Below are positions 33,380-37,705 of a stretch of 64,000 nt of DNA, piece after piece; within the stretch, counting starts at the first letter, position 1, and every line of letters begins with the position of its first letter. The stretch comes from Alphaproteobacteria bacterium (GTDB lineage: Bacteria > Pseudomonadota > Alphaproteobacteria > Micavibrionales > Micavibrionaceae): contig JANQRF010000002.1 of assembly GCA_028289285.1 (NCBI GenBank), positions 62,001 to 126,000 on the forward strand, written 5' to 3'. Under the pieces are notes generated by a model. The model ran no database searches. It saw only the letters and a list, made by a program, of their open reading frames with translations, and was not told the DNA's origin. A program made the position numbers and the translations under genes.

Positions 33380-34639
33380 TTAAGCTACTGCTAATTTTAT
33401 TTGATGGGGCCTTGTGTTGCCTACTATTAAAGAGGTTGCTCTTGGTCTTCTGCTGCGGTTAGAAAGAGTGGGCATTTGATGTTTTTCCAATACTGCCGGG
33501 CGATGGTCTGTTTTTTCAAAAATATAAAAGTTTAAACCAGTATTCTCTCCCATATTCACATCATGAGTCATGCCAGTATTATTTGTGCTTCTACTAGTTA
33601 TTACATCTTGCGGAGGTCTCAAAGAGTACATCATATGCAAGGTGCTATATTGAGGAATATCAACATCAACATGTTTGTTGCCCCCATTCATAACCTGAAT
33701 GGTCTGTCTTTGTTGTGCAACCAGTCTATGTGCGTAAAGAGCTGATCTTGTATAGAATTTTGGATCGTAAGTGAAAAGTAAAGCACCTTCCTCATCATGT
33801 ATTTCTAAACCTTTGATTTCCTCGGGGCCTTCCCTGCGTATTACTTCTAATCCGTTCAGGAAAAACTCGTCCAACTTTGGAGATCTGTAATATCCCTGAC
33901 TTTCGTCATAACCGCTAAAACAATCAAACCCAATTACAGATCCTTCTGCTCCAAATTCGCCTAAAAGAGCCATTCTTTTGTCTATGGTGCCGGTTGGTAT
34001 TGTTTCCGTGTTTGGGACCTCTTCGATATTTCCGAAAGTGGCCCCTGTGCTGATAACGCCCGTTTTTACATTTTTTCTTGATTGGCTGTCAAAATGCTCG
34101 CGCATAATCTGATCGAATTTTTTACCAGATATTCGGGTAAAATCTGCCTGAATCGCCCTAACAACAAAATCTGCTCCTATTTCATGTCCCAGGTCATGCA
34201 GCGCTCTTATATTTTCTTTTAGAAAATCTAAGGAAACATCTACAAGGACTACCTCGATTTTTTTATTTTTACCGCGCTGTTCAATGACCTCTCTGATAAG
34301 GGCGCCTTCCTGATTCATAAACGCGTCATAACTTCCGGCGCCTATGATTACTAATCGATCAACATCTCTGTATCTTGTTGCTATCGTTCTTGCATGATCT
34401 TTAAATATTCTCGCTGGAGCAGTATCTTCTAGTCTCCTATCAGTACGTTCTTTTAAAAAGTCAGTATATAATTTTGAGCCTTTTTCATCTCCATATAATA
34501 CTGGCGCAGCAATACCGCGCACCTGACTGTGGAGCAAAAGCGTGCCTATTCTTTTTGCTTCTCTGTGGAGATCAAAGCCCGCAAATGAAATATGCTGCTC
34601 TAAATCTATTAAGTTATCTTTATCTATGTCACTTAGCAT
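33380..34639 (-). CDS. EgtD-like (Methyltransf_33) SAM-dependent methyltransferase homologue
   Basis: A 419-residue protein. The motif order follows EgtD, the histidine N-alpha-methyltransferase: GDEKGSKLYTDFL near residue 50 (EgtD: DERGSELFEAI), a SAM strand LVIIGAGSYD at about 95-104, VVLVDVSLDFLKENI, then TGATFGNIEEVP in place of GSTIGNF, and IGFDCFSGYD in place of the D-x-x-K-D motif. The C-terminal 130 residues, Asn/Arg/Thr-rich, have no counterpart I know. Sequence is AT-rich relative to neighbours. It lies 8 bp after an XRE regulator gene. Ergothioneine partners such as EgtB are not nearby, so the substrate is open. Confidence 0.55.
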   Translation of the reverse strand: MLSDIDKDNLIDLEQHISFAGFDLHREAKRIGTLLLHSQVRGIAAPVLYGDEKGSKLYTDFLKERTDRRLEDTAPARIFKDHARTIATRYRDVDRLVIIGAGSYDAFMNQEGALIREVIEQRGKNKKIEVVLVDVSLDFLKENIRALHDLGHEIGADFVVRAIQADFTRISGKKFDQIMREHFDSQSRKNVKTGVISTGATFGNIEEVPNTETIPTGTIDKRMALLGEFGAEGSVIGFDCFSGYDESQGYYRSPKLDEFFLNGLEVIRREGPEEIKGLEIHDEEGALLFTYDPKFYTRSALYAHRLVAQQRQTIQVMNGGNKHVDVDIPQYSTLHMMYSLRPPQDVITSRSTNNTGMTHDVNMGENTGLNFYIFEKTDHRPAVLEKHQMPTLSNRSRRPRATSLIVGNTRPHQIKLAVA

Positions 34640-34647
34640 GATTTTTT

Positions 34648-35310
34648 TTATAAATGCTTTTGTATATTTTCACCTGAGATTTTGCTGGCTCTTTGCCACA
34701 TATCGTCAAATTGAACCTTGTAAGCCTCGGCAATGCTGGCATATTTCAAAACGATGATGGAGGGTGTTCCATCAAAAAGAAAAATGGCCAGAGTGTTGCC
34801 GAACACGTAAAACGGCACGGATGCAAATAGCTCTTTTGGTATCCATTTATATTCTGCATAATTGGAACCCGGCGCGTAATCATCTCCTTCTTTTGTCAAA
34901 ATTTTATAACATTTTCTATTCAAGTCACTAACACGATCAACATGCACTTTTGCATATTCATCGAGGGCTTTAACAAATAAACGTTCATCAACATTACTTA
35001 CAAATACGTGTTCATTATATTCACGCAAAAAGTTATAAATATCGTCATAAAATTCTATAAACCCATCTTTACCCCTGAATACGCGGACATCGCCACTTCT
35101 TTGCCGGATACCGTCGAGCCCGATAAATTCAATACCTGAATTTTCAAACGTCTTCCTAAGAGTCTTTAACGTACTCTCTCTTGGACTTGTCGTTCCGTTT
35201 TCAATTGCGCCGATCGATGTTGCAGAGATTCCCGTGCGCTGCGATAGGTCCTGCTGGCTCCATCCTAAAATACCGCGCGCACCGCGTATCTGTGCTGTTG
35301 TAATACTCAT
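34648..35310 (-). CDS. XRE-family regulator with sensor-like C-terminal domain
   Basis: A 220-residue protein. A helix-turn-helix of the XRE type covers residues 3-60 (RGARGILGWSQQDLSQRTG, then ISATSIGAIENGTTSPRE). The C-terminal 130 residues (FYDDIYNFLREYNEHVFVSNVDE ... EYKWIPKELFASVPFYVFGN ... IIVLKYASIAEAYKVQFD) resemble the effector-binding domain of TrmB-like regulators, given here in part. I chose the ATG at 35310; a GTG at 35322 only adds MWTK. Two inverted repeats lie upstream. It probably controls itself and the methyltransferase-like gene downstream. Confidence 0.75.
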   Translation of the reverse strand: MSITTAQIRGARGILGWSQQDLSQRTGISATSIGAIENGTTSPRESTLKTLRKTFENSGIEFIGLDGIRQRSGDVRVFRGKDGFIEFYDDIYNFLREYNEHVFVSNVDERLFVKALDEYAKVHVDRVSDLNRKCYKILTKEGDDYAPGSNYAEYKWIPKELFASVPFYVFGNTLAIFLFDGTPSIIVLKYASIAEAYKVQFDDMWQRASKISGENIQKHL

Positions 35311-35322
35311 CTTTGTCCACAC

Positions 35323-35335
35323 AACGTCTGACGTT
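35323..35335. promoter_or_regulatory. candidate XRE operator
   Basis: AACGT-CTG-ACGTT, a perfect 5-bp inverted repeat 13 bp before the XRE start codon, in the leader or core promoter of that gene. Confidence 0.4.
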
Positions 35336-35398
35336 ATTACGCTTCGTTATACACCCATATAGTCTTAAAGTGACCTCTTTCTATTATAATCTGTAAAA

Positions 35399-35439: not shown

Positions 35440-35468
35440 TTGACATTATGGCAAAAATTATGAATTAT
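35440..35468 (+). promoter_or_regulatory. rightward promoter of the structured RNA candidate
   Basis: TTGACA at 35440-35445, 17-bp spacer, AATTAT at 35463-35468. The -35 is perfect, the -10 weaker. No convincing gene follows on this strand before 35660. Confidence 0.5.
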
Positions 35469-35474
35469 GCAAGC

Positions 35475-35640
35475 CAAACTTATAAATGACATAAGTTTTT
35501 TGTCTGGAAGCAAGATTCTTTCTCCTCTGAGAACAACTATTGCCCCGGACGATTCTCTTTATGGTGGTAAAGAGAGCGTGTACCCCACACACGTTGAAAC
35601 GGAGCGTTTGGTTTACCCGGCGCTCCGTTTCTTCATTAAA
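35475..35640 (+). ncRNA. candidate structured non-coding RNA, novel
   Basis: The gap between the XRE gene (35310) and the peptidase gene (35660) holds five hairpins placed almost end to end behind a promoter. P1: AAACTTAT 35476-35483 with ATAAGTTT 35491-35498. P2, an imperfect rod: GTCTGG 35502-35507 with CCGGAC 35545-35550, GCAA 35510-35513 with TTGC 35540-35543, TTCTC 35520-35524 with GAGAA 35529-35533. P3: TCTCTTTA 35554-35561 with TAAAGAGA 35568-35575. P4: CGTGT 35577-35581 with ACACG 35589-35593. P5: an 11-bp stem, the terminator. A 61-codon reading frame starting at 35467 lies in the -10 element and has no ribosome site, so I do not call a protein. I cannot match it to a known RNA family. 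Confidence 0.45.
35596..35631 (+). terminator. terminator hairpin, possibly bidirectional
   Basis: GAAACGGAGCG at 35596-35606 pairs perfectly with CGCTCCGTTTC at 35621-35631. A short T-rich TTTCTTCATT follows on the + strand. It may also end the leftward peptidase message, whose stop is at 35660. Confidence 0.6.
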
Positions 35641-35659
35641 TCAATAAGTTAATGGGTTT

Positions 35660-37705
35660 TTACGCTGCTTGCTTATCCAGTAGCCCTTCACGCCTGAAGA
35701 GCGCTTGCGGATCGGCCTCCCGGCCCCGGAACCGCTTATACAGGGTTGCCGGGTGCTCCGATCCGCCTTTGGACAGAATGTGTATGATAAAAGATTCAGC
35801 GGCTTTGGCATCATATAACCCTTCTTCCATAAAGAGTTCAAAGGTATCTGCATCCAGCACTTCCGCCCATTTATAGCTGTAAAAGCCGGCCGCGTAGCCG
35901 CCGCCGAATATATGAGAAAAGGCAGCCGAAAACAGGCCTGCATAGCGCGGAAAGAAACTGGTGTCTTTCATGTGGGTATCCTCAAAGGCGCATACATCCG
36001 TAATCTCAGTAGAATCAGTTGTGTGATACATCATATCCAGAAGCGAAAATCCTACCTGTCGCAAATTGCTCCAGCCGCCCATAAAATTTTTGGCGGCAGC
36101 GACTTTATCGATCAAATCTTTCGGGATCGATTCGCCTGTTTCGTAATGCCGGGCAAAGAGGTCGAGTGTCTCTTTTTTATACAGCCAGTTTTCCTGAAGT
36201 TGTGAGGGGAGCTCTACAAAATCCCATAACGTGGAATAGCCTGCATGCGAAGCATACGTCACATCAGAGAGAAGCACATGGGTTGCATGTCCCATTTCAT
36301 GAAACAGGGTCAGCACTTCATCGAAGGTGAGCAGGGAAGGTTTGTCTTTTGTCGGTTTGGTAAAGTTACAGACGATCGCTGCAACAGGGCGTTTTATCTC
36401 TCCGGCATGAAGGCCCTGGTTGCGGTAATATGTTGCCCATGCACCGGTTTTTTTACCTGTACGCGGGAAGAAATCCGCATAAAGTACGCCCATAAAGTTT
36501 CCGTTTTTTGACCCGGTTACGTCATAGGCCACAACATCCTCATGCCAGACCGGATATGCTTCGTTTTTGGTGAAGCGTAATCCGAAGAGTTTTTCGAAAT
36601 GGGTAAACGTCCCGTCTAACACTTGTTCCAGCGGGAAATAAGGCCGCAGGTCTTCGGATGAATAATCGTACAGCTTTTTTTTCAGTTTTTCCGAATAATA
36701 GGAAATATCCCAGGGTTTCAGGTCTTCGGACCCGTCCGCTTCCTTTGCAAACTCTTTTAAGGTTTCAAGGTCGTGCTGCGCGGCGGGTTTATAAACGGTT
36801 TTTAGTTTATCTAAAAAAACAAAAACGGAGTCTGGCGTTTCGGCCATACGGCGTTCCAGAACAAACGCAGCATGATTGTCATAGCCAAGCAGTTTTGCCC
36901 GTTCATCACGAAGGGAAACGGTATTTAAAATAGTTTCACAATTATCGTATTCGCCGCCAAAGCCTCGGCTTGAAAAGGCCTGCCAAATCTGTTCGCGTAA
37001 GGTCCGGTTATCTGCATAAGTGACAAAGGGTATATAGCTTGGATAATCCAGCGTGAAGATCCAGCCTTCCAGTCCTTTTTCCTCTGCGGCATGCTTGGCC
37101 ATGCCAAGTACGCTTTCCGGAAGTCCGGCGAGATCTTTTTCATTTGTAATATGAAGGGTAAATGCATCAGCTGATTTTTTTACATTATTGTTAAAAGCAG
37201 GCCCGAGTTTGGAAAGCTCTTCGTTAATCTCGCGCAGGCGTGTTTTTTTATCGTCGGGTAAAAGTGCGCCGCCGCGGACAAAATTCTTGTAACAGTCGTC
37301 CAAAAGTGTTTCTTGTTCAATCGTTAAATCCAGCGACTCTTTTTGATCATAAACCGCTTTCACGCGTGCGAAGATATCCGGGTCCAGGGCAACGTCGCTG
37401 GAAAAATTTGCACTCAAAGGGCCGATCTCTTCGGCTAGTTTTTCCAGCGCGTCCGTCCCGGCAGCGGAAAGTAAATTGTAAAAAACACTTGTAACGATAT
37501 CCAGGCGCTCTGAACAGGTTTCAAGCGCGATGATCGTGTTTTCAAAATTAGGGGTATCCGGGTTGTTTTTCAGGGTTTGAATATTCTGCCGTGCCTCTTC
37601 AATCGCCTGTTTTACGGCAGGCAGGTAATGCTCTTCTTGAATAATATCAAAGGGTGGGGCCTCGTGCGGGGCAGTAAACGGGGCAAGCAACGGATTTTCA
37701 GACAT
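35660..37705 (-). CDS. M3-family oligopeptidase (oligopeptidase A / Dcp-like)
   Basis: A 681-residue zinc metallopeptidase, normal length for the thimet oligopeptidase family. The zinc motif HEMGH is at about residues 469-473 with the third ligand in WDFVELPSQ some 25 residues on; a C-terminal FGGGYAAGFYSYKWAEV segment is typical of the family. No signal peptide, so it acts in the cytoplasm on oligopeptides, including cleaved signal peptides in E. coli PrlC. It is divergent from mnmC with 46 bp between them. Confidence 0.93.
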   Translation of the reverse strand: MSENPLLAPFTAPHEAPPFDIIQEEHYLPAVKQAIEEARQNIQTLKNNPDTPNFENTIIALETCSERLDIVTSVFYNLLSAAGTDALEKLAEEIGPLSANFSSDVALDPDIFARVKAVYDQKESLDLTIEQETLLDDCYKNFVRGGALLPDDKKTRLREINEELSKLGPAFNNNVKKSADAFTLHITNEKDLAGLPESVLGMAKHAAEEKGLEGWIFTLDYPSYIPFVTYADNRTLREQIWQAFSSRGFGGEYDNCETILNTVSLRDERAKLLGYDNHAAFVLERRMAETPDSVFVFLDKLKTVYKPAAQHDLETLKEFAKEADGSEDLKPWDISYYSEKLKKKLYDYSSEDLRPYFPLEQVLDGTFTHFEKLFGLRFTKNEAYPVWHEDVVAYDVTGSKNGNFMGVLYADFFPRTGKKTGAWATYYRNQGLHAGEIKRPVAAIVCNFTKPTKDKPSLLTFDEVLTLFHEMGHATHVLLSDVTYASHAGYSTLWDFVELPSQLQENWLYKKETLDLFARHYETGESIPKDLIDKVAAAKNFMGGWSNLRQVGFSLLDMMYHTTDSTEITDVCAFEDTHMKDTSFFPRYAGLFSAAFSHIFGGGYAAGFYSYKWAEVLDADTFELFMEEGLYDAKAAESFIIHILSKGGSEHPATLYKRFRGREADPQALFRREGLLDKQAA

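Follow-up and report, generated by a model that had tools for sequence, protein, structure and literature searches.

Trans-acting small RNAs (sRNAs) that work through C-rich loops are already known. In Listeria, the multicopy sibling sRNAs LhrC1-5 use short C-rich motifs to pair with Shine-Dalgarno regions, and the CcsR or "cuckoo" RNAs of alphaproteobacteria, processed RNAs found next to DUF1127 genes, have C-rich loops, occur in several copies and carry the motif CCUCCUCCC. PmaR of Agrobacterium tumefaciens binds its targets by an accessible C-rich single-stranded loop, and exchange of CCCA abolishes regulation; it is a single spoon-like RNA, mostly a positive regulator, and is limited to Agrobacterium and one Rhizobium strain (PMC6234868).

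The RNA described here was found in a window (the whole stretch of DNA that was analysed, 64,000 nt) that forms part of contig C1 in the 2.08-Mb genome of a Micavibrio-like alphaproteobacterium; named relatives with orthologues of its XRE-type regulator are Micavibrio and uncultured Alphaproteobacteria MAGs. The window RNA resembles each of the known systems in part: like PmaR, it is an alphaproteobacterial sRNA with a putative C-rich pairing loop; like LhrC1-5, it would belong to multiple copies united by a C-rich motif against Shine-Dalgarno regions; and like CcsR, its family has C-rich loops and several copies. However, its sequence and fold are unrelated to those of PmaR, which has no XRE partner; LhrC copies are alike over their full length, whereas the copies here have little in common except nine seed bases adjoining the terminator; and the CcsR motif differs from the window seed, CcsR also being without an XRE regulator. 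The window sRNA family is thus a new one. Literature searches turned up no work on sRNAs in Micavibrio, which is an epibiotic predator.

Structure and boundaries of the RNA

Judged from its sequence, the stretch with the five hairpins very probably encodes a genuine small regulatory RNA of predatory bacteria of the Micavibrio type. A sequence-only reading of the window had paired five hairpins by hand, and this anatomy, coordinates included, proved right: MFE and centroid folds concur on five consecutive hairpins at 35475-35640, with neighbours separated by at most one unpaired base, and correct only the lengths of P3 and P4 (given as 8 and 5 bp), each of which is 1 bp longer (Table 1). The MFE of -61.8 kcal/mol, set against dinucleotide shuffles as that reading had proposed, is matched by 0 of 200 (-35.5 +/- 3.9; z = -6.77). 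The loop of P4, ACCCCAC, contains the 5' half of the seed; at the position of the C-rich apical part of P2, homologues of genus g9 have UUCCCCACUC. The U-tract 3' of P5 is weak (UUUCUUCAUU).

The promoter sequence, also proposed earlier, is present as described, and its position predicts a start near 35475. As a bare pattern, TTGACA-N17-AATTAT is not above chance (13 found in the scan versus 10.1 expected); its TTGACA box is kept at the same place in homologues from many genera, and the -10 box is weak. At the level of sequence, the conserved promoter box and terminator P5 together delimit an independent transcription unit.

Table 1. Features of the sRNA locus and other terminator-linked seed sites of the same genome (window coordinates unless a contig is named)
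Feature	Position	Strand	Basis or remark
Small RNA, about 160 nt, five hairpins	35475..35640	+	Fold z -6.8; homologues fold alike; compensatory pairs
Promoter: TTGACA 35440-35445, 17 nt, AATTAT 35463-35468	35440..35468	+	TTGACA kept in homologues
Dyad AACTT-N11-AAGTT (hairpin P1), at RNA start	35477..35497	+	Spacer-specific count over 32 loci
P1 hairpin, 8 bp	35476-35483/35491-35498	+	MFE/centroid fold
P2 hairpin, three-helix rod, C-rich apical part UUCUCCUCU at 35520-35528	35500..35552	+	Fold
P3 hairpin, 9 bp	35554-35562/35567-35575	+	Fold, also of homologues
P4 hairpin, 6 bp	35576-35581/35589-35594 (span 35576..35594)	+	Fold
Seed CCCCACACA (nine bases)	35583..35591	+	Conservation, recurrence, target-pairing tests
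P5 hairpin, intrinsic terminator, 13 bp plus 2	35596..35631	+	Fold and terminator analysis
EgtD-like methyltransferase (Methyltransf_33), downstream of XRE gene	33380..34639	-	1.2e-9
XRE-type regulator, PLD/TrmB-like C-terminal domain	34648..35322	-	HTH_3 3.8e-10; family search; structure-model matches
M3 peptidase (oligopeptidase A/Dcp type), convergent with small RNA	35660..37705	-	Domain search; synteny kept in most relatives
Seed site at 3' end of small gene divergent from XRE paralogue	C7:55183		Terminator-linked
Seed site in short RNA upstream of another XRE paralogue	C7:63092		Terminator-linked
Seed site in separate RNA with own TTGACA promoter	C1:854546		About 4 kb from third XRE paralogue
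Seed site	C4:117588		Terminator-linked

Homologues and database comparisons

The RNA of a sister genome in the same genus (G001) is 80% identical to the window RNA, and three genomes of another genus (G009, G066 and G084) retain the RNA at the same place; those of G001 and G009, each folded independently, give the same five-hairpin chain. Some compensatory changes, on which the sequence-only reading had staked its fold, are present: in a five-sequence alignment, pairing holds in 90% of cells and the covariation is higher than in any of 500 shuffles or any slid control, which with five related sequences is modest evidence. The covariance-model search suggested earlier did find homologues but confined the chain to 5 of the 99 family genomes, in two genera only, and as a finder of remote copies the model reaches no further than these two genera.

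In many other genera, the region upstream of the XRE orthologue contains a different-looking RNA with the layout TTGACA promoter, start dyad and CCCCACAC before a strong terminator; about half of the XRE orthologue loci are without such an RNA. Three features persist across loci: the position divergent from XRE, the start dyad AACTT-N11-AAGTT, and the seed before the terminator. The earlier idea of a possible new structured RNA is supported, in that the RNA is non-coding, has a terminator of its own and falls outside Rfam, but the emphasis on the five-hairpin chain was misplaced because the chain occurs in two genera only, P1 is an operator-like dyad and the conserved part is the C-rich seed. 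Upstream of distant XRE orthologues (L084, L087, L089), another conserved sRNA-like element has ATTGATATTCTCCTTCCCC directly before its terminator and is perhaps the same system with a different seed.

In Rfam, a scan of the window at gathering thresholds gave a tRNA elsewhere as its sole match and nothing on the hairpin chain, and at relaxed thresholds no family reached its own gathering score for this RNA. BSnc120 (RF02621) matches weakly (25.1 bits, E 0.0014, against a gathering score of 114) and through terminator and tail only; the matching tail is missing from the RNA of the sister species, so the window RNA is not a member. A search of plasmid DNA was empty, a scan of the genome contigs for the tail pattern gave no match, and BLAST matches beyond G001 and G009 are short and due to chance.

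A start-site dyad and the XRE regulator

The RNA gene diverges from the XRE gene and heads towards the M3 peptidase gene. In a model of the XRE protein (pLDDT 87), the C-terminal domain matches TrmBL2/TrmB and PLD-type nucleases. Is hairpin P1 an RNA element at all? ACTT-N11-AAGT is found in 11 of 32 XRE loci at spacer 11 and in 0-2 loci at each other spacer, and the shorter CTT-N11-AAG in 21 of the 32. The dyad does not keep to the RNA: at L031-L033 it precedes the RNA start by about 75 nt, and at L040 and L051 it is within the leader of the XRE gene itself. Such constant spacing, independent of the RNA, suits a DNA-binding dimer and not a hairpin loop; the P1 dyad is thus probably an XRE operator placed at the transcription start, and the earlier suggestion that the XRE module also controls the RNA gained support from the N11 spacing. 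Separately, a perfect palindrome, AACGTCTGACGTT, lies at 35327-35339 directly upstream of the XRE start, and the sister species has GGTGTATTCACACC near the same place.

The seed and its recurrence

Upstream of XRE, CCCCACA occurs in 14 of 32 loci (shuffles: mean 0.63, maximum 3), and its opposite strand and reversed pattern in none of the 32. The window's own genome has 11 copies of the nine-base seed, five of them before or inside terminators (the window RNA and four others; Table 1). The four others lie directly before a strong terminator or in its loop, and three of them are near XRE paralogues. The genome thus has several seed copies, as in the LhrC kind, but the copies are not similar along their length; the covariance model of the five-hairpin RNA finds one copy per genome only. 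The seed also stands in sRNA-like places in G005, G025, G027, G067 and G117. A strict terminator test on 67 motif sites found 5 sense sites with a terminator and 0 antisense; a loose test gave 23 sense versus 13 antisense.

The C1:854546 RNA (L163 7547, -) has an orthologue in G027 (L276 1500, -) and is common to different genera; the sequence GGTAATAGAGGTAxGTATTCCCCACACACA is followed by the terminator and matches the target over a longer stretch than the window RNA does. In G117 (C24:18.5 kb; L281 1400-1680, +), an sRNA consists of three successive hairpins, each showing the seed, and then a terminator.

Around the two C7 seed sites (G000:C7:53-64 kb), XRE paralogues at L162 3132-5240 and 11677-13574 are each divergent from a seed-bearing transcript, and one is accompanied by an EgtD-like methyltransferase. 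A C7 seed copy lies at the 3' end of an 84-aa gene (...FFDVKELYDAAFAEK...). Two related genes of 125-130 aa (MKLPTETFFERIRNRL...; L162 7221-7613, -, and 13197-13574, +) also stand beside XRE paralogues, and GAGAGATGTGGGGGCAC before the start of one of them is a possible target site.

A probable conserved target site beside mraZ

What would such a seed pair with? In G001, G084 and G025, one and the same small gene has an exact seed-complement site at its ribosome-binding site; because the search started from the seed complement, the discovery of the gene is partly circular, and the conservation and permutation tests below are independent of that search. Its product, of about 45 residues, contains a single hydrophobic segment (MLMTLMMIALALNGGLYLGTIA...) and gave no match in a Pfam search. 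The gene adjoins an mraZ-like gene in most genomes whose flank was covered, next to the division and cell-wall cluster. A GG-x-x-x-GTI motif marks the membrane protein (L183 1501-1641; L182, L185, L191, L206 and others), which is conserved in 44 or more of the 104 family genomes.

The seed complement, GUGUGUGGGGAG, covers the Shine-Dalgarno site. GTGGG[GA] is found 4-30 nt before ATG in 28 of 33 orthologues, and column-by-column conservation of the leader is restricted to TGTGTGGGGAG; a conserved seed is thus complementary to a conserved mRNA site, as expected of a trans-acting sRNA. The leader in the window's genome, UUAAUGUGUGUGGGAG, forms 14 Watson-Crick bp with the C1:854546 RNA and, in a seed-only duplex, 13 bp with the window RNA (35584-35596, CCCACACACGUUG), the best of 128 leaders. 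In accessibility-aware co-folding the target leader ranks 4 of 128 for the window RNA and 0 of 128 for the C1:854546 RNA; full-length RNAduplex, which ignores accessibility, places the window pair only at 25 of 128, a poor ranking confounded by self-structure.

Contiguous pairing of native sRNAs and leaders spans 8-17 bp in all 14 genomes examined and at least 12 bp in nine. Across 13 genomes, native pairs total -368 kcal/mol against a mean of -331 for permuted pairs, and 0 of 5000 permutations reach the native value, with sRNA sites that were partly picked by eye from motif sites near terminators. Native pairing is better than permuted, and so the flanks beyond the common core must match too (16/16 bp in G022; 17 bp in G027). 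These comparisons suggest that the seed probably switches translation of the ~45-aa membrane protein gene.

The match is not universal. The ~45-aa gene was not found in G014, G070, G024, G019, G034, G078 and G091, which have the RNA; among the genera without the gene are g14, g19, g24 and g34. In genus g35 the target site is altered to UGUGUAAGGGG, and no sRNA with a seed exactly matching the altered site was found there; every match of the predicted compensatory seed, CCCCTTACACA, falls either on that target site or inside a coding sequence.

Seed-bearing sRNAs may have further mRNA targets, as is suggested by an excess of TGTGTGGGG shortly before ATG (in 12 genomes, 50 matches, whereas the reversed pattern gave 7). 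In G014 and G067, distantly similar proteins of about 180-206 aa (L288 and L311) have TGTGTGGGG shortly before ATG, and their common gene is a possible second target. Another possible second target is an LPG_synthase_C-like gene in an XRE-paralogue operon, with a site in G001 and G021 that is degenerate in G000. The XRE mRNA itself was rejected: its leader complementarity is confined to the window's genus and absent elsewhere.

Proposed mechanism and alternative readings

The best explanation, to which we give a probability of roughly 0.7, is an XRE-controlled family of trans-acting sibling sRNAs that block ribosome entry at the ~45-aa gene and a few other mRNAs; several RNAs of the genome would be such siblings, each with the common seed (U/A)CCCCACACA next to an intrinsic terminator. 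The divergent XRE regulator would repress or tune the small RNA via the start-site dyad. The RNA would then open P4, and its seed would pair with the ribosome-binding site of the mRNA for the ~45-aa protein and also with a small number of other mRNA leaders; with the Shine-Dalgarno site covered, ribosome entry would be blocked and translation lowered, both the expression and the sign of regulation being predictions. Hfq, whose gene is present in the genome, would probably assist pairing. The basis of this reading lies in sequence: structure, homology, conservation and recurrence of the seed, a conserved complementary site, and native pairing that exceeds permuted pairing.

A small single-span hydrophobic protein whose ribosome-binding site is complementary to an sRNA also recalls type I toxin-antitoxin modules, in which case the ~45-aa protein would be toxic and the sibling sRNAs its antitoxins. 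This is unlikely: instead of an antitoxin RNA at the toxin locus, the sRNA (C1:97.5 kb) and the target gene (C1:1167 kb) are unlinked, each target has more than one sRNA, the site is also present on other mRNAs, and the target gene is stably located beside mraZ, whereas type I modules are mobile. The conserved complementary leader site and the better native pairing would be left unexplained if the C-rich motif were a protein recognition site, and the RNA a sponge, and not a pairing seed; we consider this improbable, even though the motif is displayed in loops with up to three repeats per RNA (G117).

Could the locus produce nothing that acts elsewhere, and serve only as an operator and terminator between the XRE gene and the convergent peptidase gene? 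P1 is probably an operator and P5 a terminator, but P2-P4 form stable folds kept in homologues, and conservation of the seed is limited to one strand, with further copies at unlinked loci, which leaves a purely cis-acting element scarcely probable. Least credible of all is a short mRNA. An open frame of 61 codons (35467-35652) does run across the RNA, but it begins within the -10 box, as the sequence-only reading had seen, indels in P2 break it, and a stop follows its twelfth codon in the sister species, so that it is not a conserved protein; a coding role is refuted for this frame, and the RNA has no conserved reading frame, as is usual for a trans-acting sRNA.

Implications

The trans-acting sibling sRNA reading would tie a regulator, an operator, a seed and a conserved target into one predicted set, each open to a single-experiment test, with the seed/target match CCCCACACA/GUGUGGGG at its core. 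Covariance models and Rfam would miss such a family because conservation is limited to the nine-base seed and the layout of promoter and terminator. The mraZ neighbourhood suggests a link of the target to growth and division. More tentatively, Micavibrio-like predators may share a family-wide post-transcriptional network in which otherwise unrelated sRNAs, most of them beside XRE/PLD-like regulators, would use one nine-base seed to reach a tiny membrane protein and a handful of other genes; the seed would be the unit of inheritance, the rest of the RNA would be free to change, and the network might possibly serve as a switch between attack and growth phases.
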